A stretch of 64,000 nucleotides of DNA from Thermanaerothrix daxensis (GTDB lineage Bacteria; Chloroflexota; Anaerolineae; Anaerolineales; Anaerolineaceae), in the NCBI RefSeq assembly GCF_001306145.1, contig NZ_LGKO01000005.1, forward strand, positions 248,001 to 312,000. Reading direction: 5' to 3'. The notes below the pieces were generated by a model. That model saw only the letters and a program-made list of their open reading frames with translations. It did not search any database and was not told where the DNA came from. Positions 7,414 to 17,172 of the stretch are shown here, one piece after another. Made by a program: the position numbers and the translations under genes. Numbering within the stretch: position 1 is the stretch's first letter; the number at the start of each line of letters is the position of its first letter.

Positions 7414-8757
7414 CTAATTTGGCCGGCAGGTAGTGAGCGAGGCCATGGGGGATGTTTCACCGGGTTGCGCAGCGGGGAGCGGCGCGTTCCGATGTGCCGG
7501 AGGCAGTGGGTAAATCAGCCGGGCAGCACGCTCATAGCGGAAGTACTCCCAGGCCCAGTTAATCAGCACGACCAGCCGGTTGCGAAAGCCCACCAGCTGC
7601 ATCAAGTGGACAAAAAGCCAGATCAGCCAGGCTACCCAACCCTTGAGGTGTAAGCCAAAAAGCGCGGCCACTGCCTGGTTGCGGCCAATGGTGGCCATGC
7701 TCCCCCAATCGCGATAGCGAAACACCTGAAGAGGTTGTCCTTGCAAGGCACGCAGGATGTTGCGGGCCGCATGCTCGCCTTGTTGCATGGCCACCGGTGC
7801 TACCATGGGCAGGGGGTGACCGTTTTCATCTTCGAGGTACGCGGCGTCGCCGATGACGAAAACCCGGGGGTAACCCGGTAGTTGCAGGGTCGGCAGGACG
7901 CGCACACGTTTCTGAGTTCCCAGGGCGGCCGGCAAATTTTGAACCAGGTCAGCAGCCTGGACACCCGCGGCCCAGATCAGGGTCTGAGTGGGCAAGGTGC
8001 GCCCATCGGCCAGGTTCACACACTGCCCGTCGTAATCCCGAACCTGGGCCTTTAACCAGACTTCCACGCCTTTCTGACGCAAGGCTTCCTGAGCGGCTTG
8101 GCCCAAATTGGGTGGCAGGTGGCTCAGCAGGCGGTCGGTGGCCTCCAGTAAAATCACACGGGCTCGGCTCAGGTTGAGGTTGGGGTAATCTTTACGCAAG
8201 ACCAGGCGAATCAGTTCGGCCAGGGCGCCCGCGCATTCTACACCGGTCGGGCCACCCCCCACAACCACAAAGGTCAGCATGGCGCGCTGCACGTCGGGAT
8301 CAGTTTGCTGGGTGGCCAGTTCAAAGCGGCTTAATACGTGATTTCGGATAGCGAGGGCTTCATCAATGTCTTTGAGCCCGAAGGCATGTTGAGCAATGGA
8401 GGAAAGACCAAAAGTGTTGGTGACACTACCGACAGCAAGGATCAGATAGTCATAGGGAATTGGGCCGGCGGTGGTGAACAGATAGCGGCCTTCCAGGTCA
8501 ATCCGCTGCACGTCTGCCTGCACAAAGGTCAAGTTTTTCTGCTGCCGCAGGATGCCGCGCACCGGGTAGGCGATTTCCTCCGGGGCCAAACCAGCGCTGG
8601 CTACCTGGTAGAGGAGGGGTTGAAAGAGATGGTAGTTGCGCCGGTCAATGAGCGTCACGCGCACGGGGGCGTTTGCCAGTGCGCGTGCTGCGCGCAATCC
8701 GCCGAATCCGGCTCCCACAATTGCAACATGAGGTTGGGTCACACTCGAAGGTTTCAT
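7414..8757 (-). CDS. ndh: Type II NADH:quinone oxidoreductase
   Basis: Single-subunit, non-proton-pumping NADH dehydrogenase that passes electrons from NADH through FAD to quinone. The 447-residue protein shows the FAD dinucleotide fold VAIVGAGFGGLRAA at the start, the NADH-binding fold VVVGGGPTGVECAGALAEL near residue 165, and FVIGDAAYL near 300. The C-terminal region is hydrophobic and aromatic (WVAWLIWLFVHLMQLVGF), as expected for membrane anchoring. ATG 8757 has GGGAGA 7 nt upstream; a start 27 nt earlier lacks this. The promoter region carries a striking inverted repeat. Confidence 0.92.
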   Translation of the reverse strand: MKPSSVTQPHVAIVGAGFGGLRAARALANAPVRVTLIDRRNYHLFQPLLYQVASAGLAPEEIAYPVRGILRQQKNLTFVQADVQRIDLEGRYLFTTAGPIPYDYLILAVGSVTNTFGLSSIAQHAFGLKDIDEALAIRNHVLSRFELATQQTDPDVQRAMLTFVVVGGGPTGVECAGALAELIRLVLRKDYPNLNLSRARVILLEATDRLLSHLPPNLGQAAQEALRQKGVEVWLKAQVRDYDGQCVNLADGRTLPTQTLIWAAGVQAADLVQNLPAALGTQKRVRVLPTLQLPGYPRVFVIGDAAYLEDENGHPLPMVAPVAMQQGEHAARNILRALQGQPLQVFRYRDWGSMATIGRNQAVAALFGLHLKGWVAWLIWLFVHLMQLVGFRNRLVVLINWAWEYFRYERAARLIYPLPPAHRNAPLPAAQPGETSPMASLTTCRPN

Positions 8758-8792
8758 CAGGTCGTCTCCCTGGATACGTACCAAGCCGGAAT

Positions 8793-8843
8793 TGTGATAA
8801 ATGTAACTAATACTATTATAGTCTAATTTATCACATAATACAA
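8793..8843 (-). promoter_or_regulatory. ndh promoter flanked by a perfect 10-bp inverted repeat
   Basis: On the minus strand, TTGTAT (8843-8838) and TATAAT (8820-8815) are separated by 17 nt, giving a start near 8808. The arms TGTGATAAAT (8793-8802) and ATTTATCACA (8826-8835) are perfect inverted repeats with centres 33 bp apart, about three helical turns. One arm lies between -35 and -10, the other just after the start site. This geometry suits a repressor; TGTGA half-sites occur in Rex and CRP/FNR operators. Confidence 0.65.
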
Positions 8844-8959: not shown

Positions 8960-11170
8960 CTAATCGGGGTTGATGGCTTCCAGACGCGCAATGGAGGCGA
9001 TGACCCGCTTAAAGCCGACGCTTTCAAAGAACACGTCTACGGTTTCCTCGCCGTCTTCCTGAATGCGGCTGTCTACCACCATGCCCTCGCCCCAGGCGGG
9101 ATGGCGCACACGCTGACCGGGGCGGTAACGGGGTTGCAGGATGGCAGCATGGGCGGGGGAGGGCGGTACGCGCGAAGATGGCGAGCGTTCTGCTGCCCAG
9201 GTCGTGGCAGATGAGCGGGTGCGCCGATACCCCTGGCGCTGAAGCAAACGCTCGTCAATATCCGCAAGGAAACGCGAGGGCTCTTGTTCAACCGCAACGC
9301 CGTAGGCACTGCGGCGCAAGGCCCGCACCAGGTAAACCCGGTCTTTGGCCCGTGTTAGGCCCACATAGAAGAGGCGGCGTTCTTCTGCCATCTCCTCCGG
9401 ATCGTCTCGTGATCGGCTGTGGGGCAGGAGCCCCTCGTCCAGCCCAATGATGAAAACTTGAGGAAATTCCAACCCTTTGGCGGCATGCAGGGTGAGCAGG
9501 GTAGGGGCATTTTGATCCTGGGGCAGTGTATCCTGGTCGGAAACCAGTGCCAGGTCTTCTAGGAAGGCGCTCAATCCGCGCTCGCGATATTCAAAAGCCA
9601 AACGGCGCAATTCTTGTACGTTTTCCCAACGATCCTGACCCTCTTCACTGCCGTCGTTGATGTAGGCTTCGTAGCCCACATCGGCCAGGATGCGGTCAAA
9701 TAATTCAATCAGGCTCAGGGTATCACGTGCTCGTTGCCAGTTGGCAAGTAGTCCCCCGAAATCGGCCAGGAGCATGGCGCTGCGCCCCGGAAAACGCGCC
9801 CAATAAGGAGAATCATGCCCTTTTTCACCCAGTTCAAGCAGAAGGTGGCCTGGGGATTGGTGGGTCTCGCGGGCCAGCAGTTGTAAAGCAACCAGAGACT
9901 TCTCGCCGATCCCGCGCGGCGGGACGTTGATCACGCGCAGCAGGCTGATTTCGTCATCCGGATTTTGGGCCAGACGCAGGAAGGCAATTACGTCCTTGAC
10001 CTCACGCCGGCCGTAAAAGCGCTGGGCTCCGACCAGGTGATAGGGAATGCCTGCACGTAAGAAGGCCTCTTCCAGTAGGCGAGATTGAGCATTGGTGCGA
10101 TACATTACTGCAAAATCGCTGCCGCGAGCCTTACCGCTTTCTATCCACTGGCGGATGGTATCCACGACGAAGGTGGCCTCTGCAAATTCGTCCACGGCCT
10201 CATAAAGGACAATCGGCTCACCCCGCCCGCGATCAGAGAAGAGGCGCTTGGGCGTGCGCTGGTGGTTGCGGTTGATGACCCCCTGGGCCGCATCCAGTAC
10301 GGTTTGGGTGGAGCGGTAGTTTTGCTGCAAAAGGATCTTCTGAACATCCGGAAATTCCGATTCAAAACGCAGCACGTTGCGGTAATCCGCCCCGCGCCAC
10401 CGGTAAATGGATTGATCCTCATCGCCTACCACGAAGACGTTCTGGTGTACGGAGGTCAATAATTTGAGCAGTTCGTATTGCACCAGATTGGTATCTTGAA
10501 ACTCATCCACCAGCACGTGTTCGAAACGCCCCGCGTAGCGCTCCAAAACCGGTGGGTTTTCGCGAAACAGACGCACGGTTTCAATCAGCAGGTCATCAAA
10601 GTCAACGGCGTTGTTATTGCGCAGGAAGGTCTGGTACTGCTGGTAAACGCGCTTGACAACCTCATCGCGGTAAGTGCGGGGAGTGAACTCCTCGGGGGTG
10701 ATGAGGTTATTTTTCGCCATGGAGATGGTGGCGTGAATACCGGCTGGGCGGTAAAGCTTTTCATCAAGGTTTAGTGCTTTAAGGGCCTGGCGTACCAGAG
10801 CAATCTGGTCATCTGCATCCATGATCACGAAGTTTTGATCGAAGGGTAGATAGGCTGCTTCGCGCCGTAAAATGCGAGCACAGACGGCATGAAAGGTACC
10901 CAACCAGATGGACTGGCTTTGTTCACCCAGGAGGGTCTCGAGGCGATGTTGCATCTCGCGGGCGGCTTTGTTGGTAAATGTGACGGCCAGGATGTGGTGA
11001 GGGCGTACTCCCATGGCCTTGACCAGATAAGCGATGCGCTGGGTGAGAACGCGCGTTTTGCCCGACCCCGGTCCGGCCAGCACCAAAATGGGCCCTTCCC
11101 CGGCGGTCACCGCGCGGTATTGTTCGGGATTGAGGTGTTTCAGAAAGTCCAGCGGTTGATTTTCGAACAT
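8960..11170 (-). CDS. pcrA: ATP-dependent DNA helicase, PcrA/UvrD family
   Basis: Superfamily 1A 3'-5' helicase used in nucleotide excision repair and in clearing proteins from DNA. About 736 residues. Motifs in order: LNPEQYRAV (Q motif region), AGPGSGKTRVL (Walker A), FTNKAAREM (Ia), VDEFQDTN (Walker B), GDEDQSIYRWRGA (III), QNYRS (IV), TLHAAKGLEFPQVFI (V) and VGLTRAKDRVYL (VI). The C-terminus (GQRVRHPAWGEGMVV) is the Tudor-like RNA polymerase-binding segment typical of PcrA/UvrD. The start is unsure: ATG 11170 and ATG 11182 are both possible with no good ribosome site; a longer frame to 11224 overlaps the -10 box. Confidence 0.95.
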   Translation of the reverse strand: MFENQPLDFLKHLNPEQYRAVTAGEGPILVLAGPGSGKTRVLTQRIAYLVKAMGVRPHHILAVTFTNKAAREMQHRLETLLGEQSQSIWLGTFHAVCARILRREAAYLPFDQNFVIMDADDQIALVRQALKALNLDEKLYRPAGIHATISMAKNNLITPEEFTPRTYRDEVVKRVYQQYQTFLRNNNAVDFDDLLIETVRLFRENPPVLERYAGRFEHVLVDEFQDTNLVQYELLKLLTSVHQNVFVVGDEDQSIYRWRGADYRNVLRFESEFPDVQKILLQQNYRSTQTVLDAAQGVINRNHQRTPKRLFSDRGRGEPIVLYEAVDEFAEATFVVDTIRQWIESGKARGSDFAVMYRTNAQSRLLEEAFLRAGIPYHLVGAQRFYGRREVKDVIAFLRLAQNPDDEISLLRVINVPPRGIGEKSLVALQLLARETHQSPGHLLLELGEKGHDSPYWARFPGRSAMLLADFGGLLANWQRARDTLSLIELFDRILADVGYEAYINDGSEEGQDRWENVQELRRLAFEYRERGLSAFLEDLALVSDQDTLPQDQNAPTLLTLHAAKGLEFPQVFIIGLDEGLLPHSRSRDDPEEMAEERRLFYVGLTRAKDRVYLVRALRRSAYGVAVEQEPSRFLADIDERLLQRQGYRRTRSSATTWAAERSPSSRVPPSPAHAAILQPRYRPGQRVRHPAWGEGMVVDSRIQEDGEETVDVFFESVGFKRVIASIARLEAINPD

Positions 11171-17053: not shown

Positions 17054-17140
17054 GCCGTTCCCTCCTGAAGTGGTGATTGTGTGGACATTTTAAGACGAAA
17101 CGGCGGGCTTGGGTAGAGGAACGGGAGAAGACCATTCTGA

Positions 17141-17156
17141 TGTGACATTCGTCACA
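17141..17156. promoter_or_regulatory. Perfect TGTGA-N6-TCACA operator
   Basis: The 16 bp 17141-17156 are a full palindrome except for the central ATTC: TGTGAC at the left, GTCACA at the right. It matches the classic CRP/FNR-family half-site spacing and also the Rex format. Its centre is about 58-60 bp upstream of the start predicted from 17173-17200, close to the class I activator position. It is also upstream of divergent xpt. Confidence 0.65.
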
Positions 17157-17172
17157 TATTTTGTCTGACATA

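Follow-up and report, generated by a model that had tools for sequence, protein, structure and literature searches.

The ndh gene of Thermanaerothrix daxensis very likely carries a Rex operator of ordinary length that overlaps its predicted transcription start. In the window (the whole 64-kb stretch of DNA that was analysed) the 18-bp box TAGTTACATTTATCACAA at 8792-8809 forms a palindrome close to the Rex operator consensus TTGTGAAWWWWTTCACAA and overlaps the predicted start region of this redox and energy gene, which encodes a type II NADH:quinone oxidoreductase (NDH-2). Regulation of ndh by Rex, already proposed in an earlier sequence-only reading of this DNA, appears well supported: boxes are conserved among relatives, the genome encodes a Rex, and a weaker box stands at the promoter of rex itself. 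The earlier reading had started from two inverted arms bracketing the ndh promoter and had remarked that their wide spacing differs from a normal Rex site; most likely it named the right regulator and misread the geometry, as the downstream arm at 8793-8802 is half of the normal-length 18-bp box. A reading in which each arm belongs to a different box probably fits better than a single wide site made of both. The features referred to below are the following:

7414-8757, minus strand: ndh, encoding NDH-2 (447 aa, start codon ATG at 8757)
8766-8771, minus strand: AGGGAG, ribosome-binding-site-like
8792-8809, minus strand: main Rex-type box TAGTTACATTTATCACAA, 18 bp, predicted to span about -1 to +17
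8793-8802, plus strand: downstream arm of the inverted repeat
8815-8820, minus strand: predicted -10 hexamer TATAAT, aligning with the -10 hexamers of 28 relatives
8819-8836, minus strand: weaker Rex-like 18-mer ATGTGATAAATTAGACTA of uncertain function, containing the upstream arm
8826-8835, minus strand: upstream arm of the inverted repeat, its GATAAAT part (8832-8826) lying on the GAYAAA spacer element
8838-8843, minus strand: -35-like hexamer TTGTAT, 3 of 6 positions matching TTGACA, 17 bp ahead of the -10
L002, 1039-1659: Rex repressor gene, passing several NCBIfam Rex models

The ndh product shows the make-up of NDH-2 enzymes, a flavoprotein with two dinucleotide-binding domains and an NDH2 C-terminal domain: Pyr_redox_2 and NDH2_C both scored above the cut-off in a Pfam profile search, and the top solved relative is 9mqy, a non-electrogenic NADH:ubiquinone reductase (E 3.9e-87). 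None of the 25 matches listed against NCBIfam was above cut-off. A protein in a Thermanaerothrix sp. MAG (locus L080) is 85% identical. A UvrD/PcrA-like helicase gene (named by eye) precedes ndh on this strand and ends at 8960. Read along the minus strand from 8843 to 8757, the predicted promoter region consists of TTGTAT, 17 bases, TATAAT, 5 bases, the TAGTTACATTTATCACAA box, AGGGAG and the ATG, so that the main box begins 5 bases after the predicted -10. The -35-like TTGTAT was absent from the picks of a promoter scan.

The main box deviates from TTGTGA-N6-TCACAA at 2 of the 12 fixed positions, its distal half TCACAA being strong and its proximal half TAGTTA weak. With a score of 18.1 it is the best match in the 64-kb window to a matrix built from 33 boxes of relatives, none of them from the genus of the window and three of them with TAGTTA; the inner positions of the published form of the consensus lie outside this scoring. 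The box is letter-for-letter identical in the sister genome G001, which is placed in the same genus and is the only other genome of that genus compared. Because the TAGTTA half is common to the ndh upstream regions L008, L010, L011 and L017 as well, it is conserved and not the result of mere decay.

Comparative footprinting of ndh upstream regions, which had been suggested as a check in the earlier reading, was carried out on 49 sequences: 30 from the family and 19 from 80 named loci. For the family set 101 genomes were searched, 32 of which had an ndh match and 30 yielded upstreams (two were without locus); 33 of the 80 named loci were inspected, of which L080, L086, L087 and L102 were left out as repeats of family rows. 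TTGTGA-N6-TCACAA was matched with at most 2 mismatches in 37/49 upstreams (no mismatch in 8, one in 16, two in 13), including L009, where the match is far upstream and has a matrix score of only 1.9. More than 2 mismatches were found in the other 12 (L021, L025, L026, L027, L028, L029, L081, L082, L085, L090, L095 and L103). Shuffled sequences reached the same threshold in about 1.1% of cases and the reversed pattern in 0/49, both controls being run with two upstreams misplaced, when the observed count was 36/49. The rows are not independent, as several are near-duplicates. Ten distant rows outside the 49 (L089, L092, L097, L105, L106, L107, L108, L115, L142 and L149, with L092 and L097 taken from inside the gene start) gave no match at 2 mismatches, and their inclusion would give 37/59. 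In 28 of 29 hand-picked, hand-aligned promoters the box follows the -10 by 2-13 bases, the sole exception being L026, where the box is absent.

The same alignment displays a GAYAAA element 12 to 7 bases ahead of the -10 in many ndh promoters, located here at 8827-8832 on the minus strand. Its first two positions are G in 22/29 and A in 21/29 of the hand-aligned promoters, and L026, whose genome lacks Rex, has the element too; a regulator other than Rex may bind there. GAYAAW-N6-TATAAT occurs four times in the genome (control 0). A short-spaced class of promoters of the form TTGACA-N8-TATAAT, suggested by this element, is unsupported in general: the genome contains 28 exact TTGACA/TATAAT pairs (control 1), with spacers of 16-18 bp in 22 of them, 8 bp in two and 10 bp in one.

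A Pfam profile search found a single Rex-type DNA-binding domain (PF06971) in the genome. The protein that carries it combines a winged-helix domain with an NAD(H)-binding domain at full length, aligns to solved Rex chains (for example 3ikv, E 2.9e-49 over residues 6-203) and shares 193 of 206 residues with the Rex of the sister genome. Read by eye, its stretch QIRKDLSHFGEFGKQGTGY carries the DNA-recognition Gln-x-Arg-Lys motif (Tma Gln46, Arg48 and Lys49) and a Gly-rich wing, and the equivalent of Tma Arg60 is Gln, so that most of the recognition residues named for Thermotoga maritima Rex (PMC8836258) are present. In the rex promoter CTGTAGAATCTTTCACAA comes after TATAAT, and the sister differs little, its sequence reading TATAATATTCTGTAGAATCCTTCACAA where this genome has TATAATATCTGTAGAATCTTTCACAA. 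This candidate box has the same form and place as that of ndh and is weaker, with 3 mismatches, a number attained by about 10% of shuffled 200-base regions, and a score of only 7.2 with the ndh-derived matrix. The 30 other rex upstreams of the family have at most 2 mismatches in 13 cases, 3 mismatches in 6 and 4 or 5 in 11.

We also compared the presence of Rex with that of the ndh box across the 30 family upstreams, 26 of which belong to Rex-bearing genomes and four to genomes lacking Rex (G023, G024, G037 and G066). By the matrix (leave-one-out, score at least 10) the box is conserved in 22/26 Rex-bearing genomes, the four without it being L021, L025, L027 and L028, and is found in 1/4 of those lacking Rex (Fisher 0.031). 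By the 2-mismatch rule the values are 22/26 and 2/4 (L023 and the far-upstream match of L009), and the association vanishes (Fisher 0.17). The agreement between the two thus appears weak, and since three of the four Rex-lacking genomes are only 64-78% complete the test is weak either way. G066, whose ndh upstream L023 has the box, is 78% complete in 510 contigs; both G031 and G053, of the same genus, have Rex, and it is possible that the rex gene of G066 was missed in an incomplete assembly.

The inverted repeat itself is as the earlier reading had described it: both copies of TGTGATAAAT are exact (8793-8802 on the plus strand, 8826-8835 on the minus strand), 33 bp or about three turns apart from centre to centre, and for the predicted promoter and start one arm does fall into the -35/-10 spacer and the other just after the start. 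The whole two-arm arrangement (loop 10-40) is unique in the 3.01-Mb genome, and the window holds three further one-mismatch matches to TGTGATAAAT, all at other places. Perfect 10-bp inverted repeats with loops of 3-40 numbered 7 distinct cases in the window, compared with 3.5 ± 2.3 in 30 simulated sequences that kept its dinucleotide composition, and 97 of 20,000 simulated 70-bp stretches of the local AT-rich composition contained one. The pairing of the arms alone is not beyond chance for the whole window, and the weight therefore rests on the likeness of the arms to Rex boxes and on the conserved downstream box.

These observations bear on three other ways of reading the arms. That they form one wide-spaced operator or the ends of a DNA loop is very improbable despite their perfect match at 33 bp, because repeats of this kind are expected several times per window and the only other genome of the genus has AAGATATATA where the upstream arm would be. 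Absence of the arms in close relatives had been named beforehand as evidence against the site, and the outcome divides: the upstream arm is lost in the sister, whereas the whole 18-bp downstream box is kept. The loss and the chance repeat rate leave a wide-armed operator or fixed loop unsupported, and the other spacings of two-box ndh promoters in relatives (42, 43, 56 and 59 bp) are compatible with paired boxes but give no support to a fixed three-turn loop. We reject an RNA hairpin or attenuator, the least probable reading of all, because one arm, the upstream one, falls within the -35/-10 spacer, ahead of the predicted -10, and would be outside the transcript from this predicted promoter, even though the inverted repeat adjoins the start of the gene. 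A more serious, albeit doubtful, possibility is that a Rex box in the spacer and another at the start act together here and give tighter or more graded repression. The upstream 18-mer scores 12.4, ranks fourth in the 64 kb and is equalled by only 6 of 5000 locally shuffled sequences; pairs of boxes no more than 60 bp apart (both at least 10 in a leave-one-out matrix scan) were found in 8/49 ndh upstreams, compared with 60 of 2940 shuffles that contained a window of this kind, and the glycerol dehydrogenase promoter likewise shows a pair of box-like sites, with a distance of 33 bp in this genome and 34 bp in the sister. On the other hand, the sequence replacing the upstream 18-mer (8836-8819) scores 3.4 in the sister, 41/49 upstreams lack a second box, and the eight that have one include the near-duplicates L030/L031 and L083/L084. 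Their spacings vary (27 bp in L003, 56 in L030 and L031, 42 in L083 and L084, 43 in L088 and L100, 59 in L103), and in the window the centres of the two sites are 27 bp or about 2.6 turns apart, which is off-phase. Moreover, GATAAAT and ACTA of the 18-mer overlap the conserved spacer element and the -10 context. Paired boxes thus seem to recur across the group with a geometry that is not fixed. In the upstreams L083, L084, L088 and L100 the boxes, 42-43 bp apart, lie on the -35 region and just past the -10. As a speculation that we hold to be rather unlikely, Anaerolineae might repeatedly acquire pairs of Rex boxes that flank the core promoters of genes for NADH recycling (ndh, glycerol dehydrogenase), with small changes in the conserved spacer element giving rise to the second box, and this species might recently have gained its weaker second ndh site in this way.

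A different question is which protein binds the boxes. TGTGA-N6-TCACA is the core of CRP-type operators, in which it is preceded by A and followed by T, and the core of the pattern TTGTGA-N6-TCACAA coincides with it. The genome encodes four Crp-family domains above cut-off, two of them clearly, the box is kept in the one Rex-lacking genome mentioned above (L023), and NADH dehydrogenase genes of Shewanella are reported to be under Crp regulation (PMC12210985). Binding by a CRP/FNR-family regulator in place of Rex is nevertheless improbable. Where the core is matched with no more than one mismatch (29 upstreams) the flanks are Rex-like, with T before it in 21 (A in 7, G in 1) and A after it in 28; three of the four Rex-lacking genomes are without the box by the matrix; and a box of this form, albeit weaker, stands at the rex promoter.

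Beyond ndh, Rex-type sequences with 2 mismatches occur 109 times in the genome compared with 49 for the reversed pattern, and 98 times compared with 47 in the sister; part of these matches may be CRP-type. Twelve places have at most one mismatch (L035-L046), some of them preceding the genes for enolase, a ccmE-like protein (below the model cut-off) and glycerol dehydrogenase. Ten of the twelve, all except L036 and L039, have a counterpart in the sister that holds a box, L042 only through its overlap with L043, which leaves nine on their own; the comparison was made locus by locus, among sister loci chosen because they contain a match. The sister loci of the enolase, ccmE-like and glycerol dehydrogenase places likewise hold boxes, and at glycerol dehydrogenase the two genomes share the identical box TTGTGAAAATTATCACTA. 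At that promoter (L045, 1468-1518; L177) the two Rex-like boxes bracket a -10-like hexamer. The second-best box-like site of the window is ATGTGACATTCGTCACAT at 17140-17157, between a phosphoribosyltransferase-like and a transporter-permease-like gene (both named by eye); it has a near copy, GTGTGACATTCGTCACAC, in the sister genome, and its A and T flanks look more CRP-like. Another sister locus (L184, G001:C1:157588-157635) contains a pair of box-like sites at a distance of 30 bp.

In other bacteria the binding of Rex to such boxes is promoted by NAD+ and weakened by NADH, as described in PMC8836258 and PMC2883068, and boxes that overlap or follow the start probably act by blocking transcription (PMC5355995). 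Transferred to the Rex operator at ndh, we infer that at low NADH an NAD+-bound Rex dimer would occupy 8792-8809 and keep RNA polymerase from starting there. With rising NADH, Rex in its NADH-bound form would release the operator and NDH-2 would be made; its re-oxidation of NADH would then close a negative feedback loop. The weaker upstream box in the -35/-10 spacer, which is outside the conserved operator, may add occupancy in this species. Among Anaerolineae, organisms described as strictly fermentative anaerobes carry respiratory genes, as is stated for T. daxensis (PMC4653793), and a Rex-controlled NDH-2 would suggest a hidden respiration wired to the NADH balance.

A literature search for Rex and Chloroflexi together with NADH dehydrogenase or type II NADH dehydrogenase found no paper, the Rex papers retrieved dealing with other bacteria; we make no claim that such regulation is unpublished, and RegPrecise is stated to include a Chloroflexi collection (PMC3840689). 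Most likely the ndh operator is otherwise ordinary and Rex-ndh feedback is already known elsewhere; if our reading is true, this feedback extends to Anaerolineae. The closest parallel is Bacillus subtilis, where Rex (YdiH) is reported to repress the gene for the NADH dehydrogenase Ndh in yjlC-ndh, forming a Rex-Ndh regulatory loop (PMC5355995): Rex control of an NADH dehydrogenase gene is common to both, whereas the phylum is another. In Streptomyces avermitilis the stretch of cydA1 protected by Rex is reported to run from -3 to +25 and to contain a half-site as well as a box past the start (PMC5355995). This resembles the ndh promoter in having a box past the start and an extra site upstream of it; however, cydA1 is another gene and its half-site spans the start, whereas at ndh the additional box is located in the spacer, ahead of the -10. 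Finally, Rex of Thermotoga maritima was crystallised on ATTTGAGAAATTTATCACAAAA, the TM0201 operator (PMC8836258), which has the same half ATTTATCACAA as the ndh box and, like it, an imperfect partner half, TTGAGA in T. maritima and TAGTTA here.
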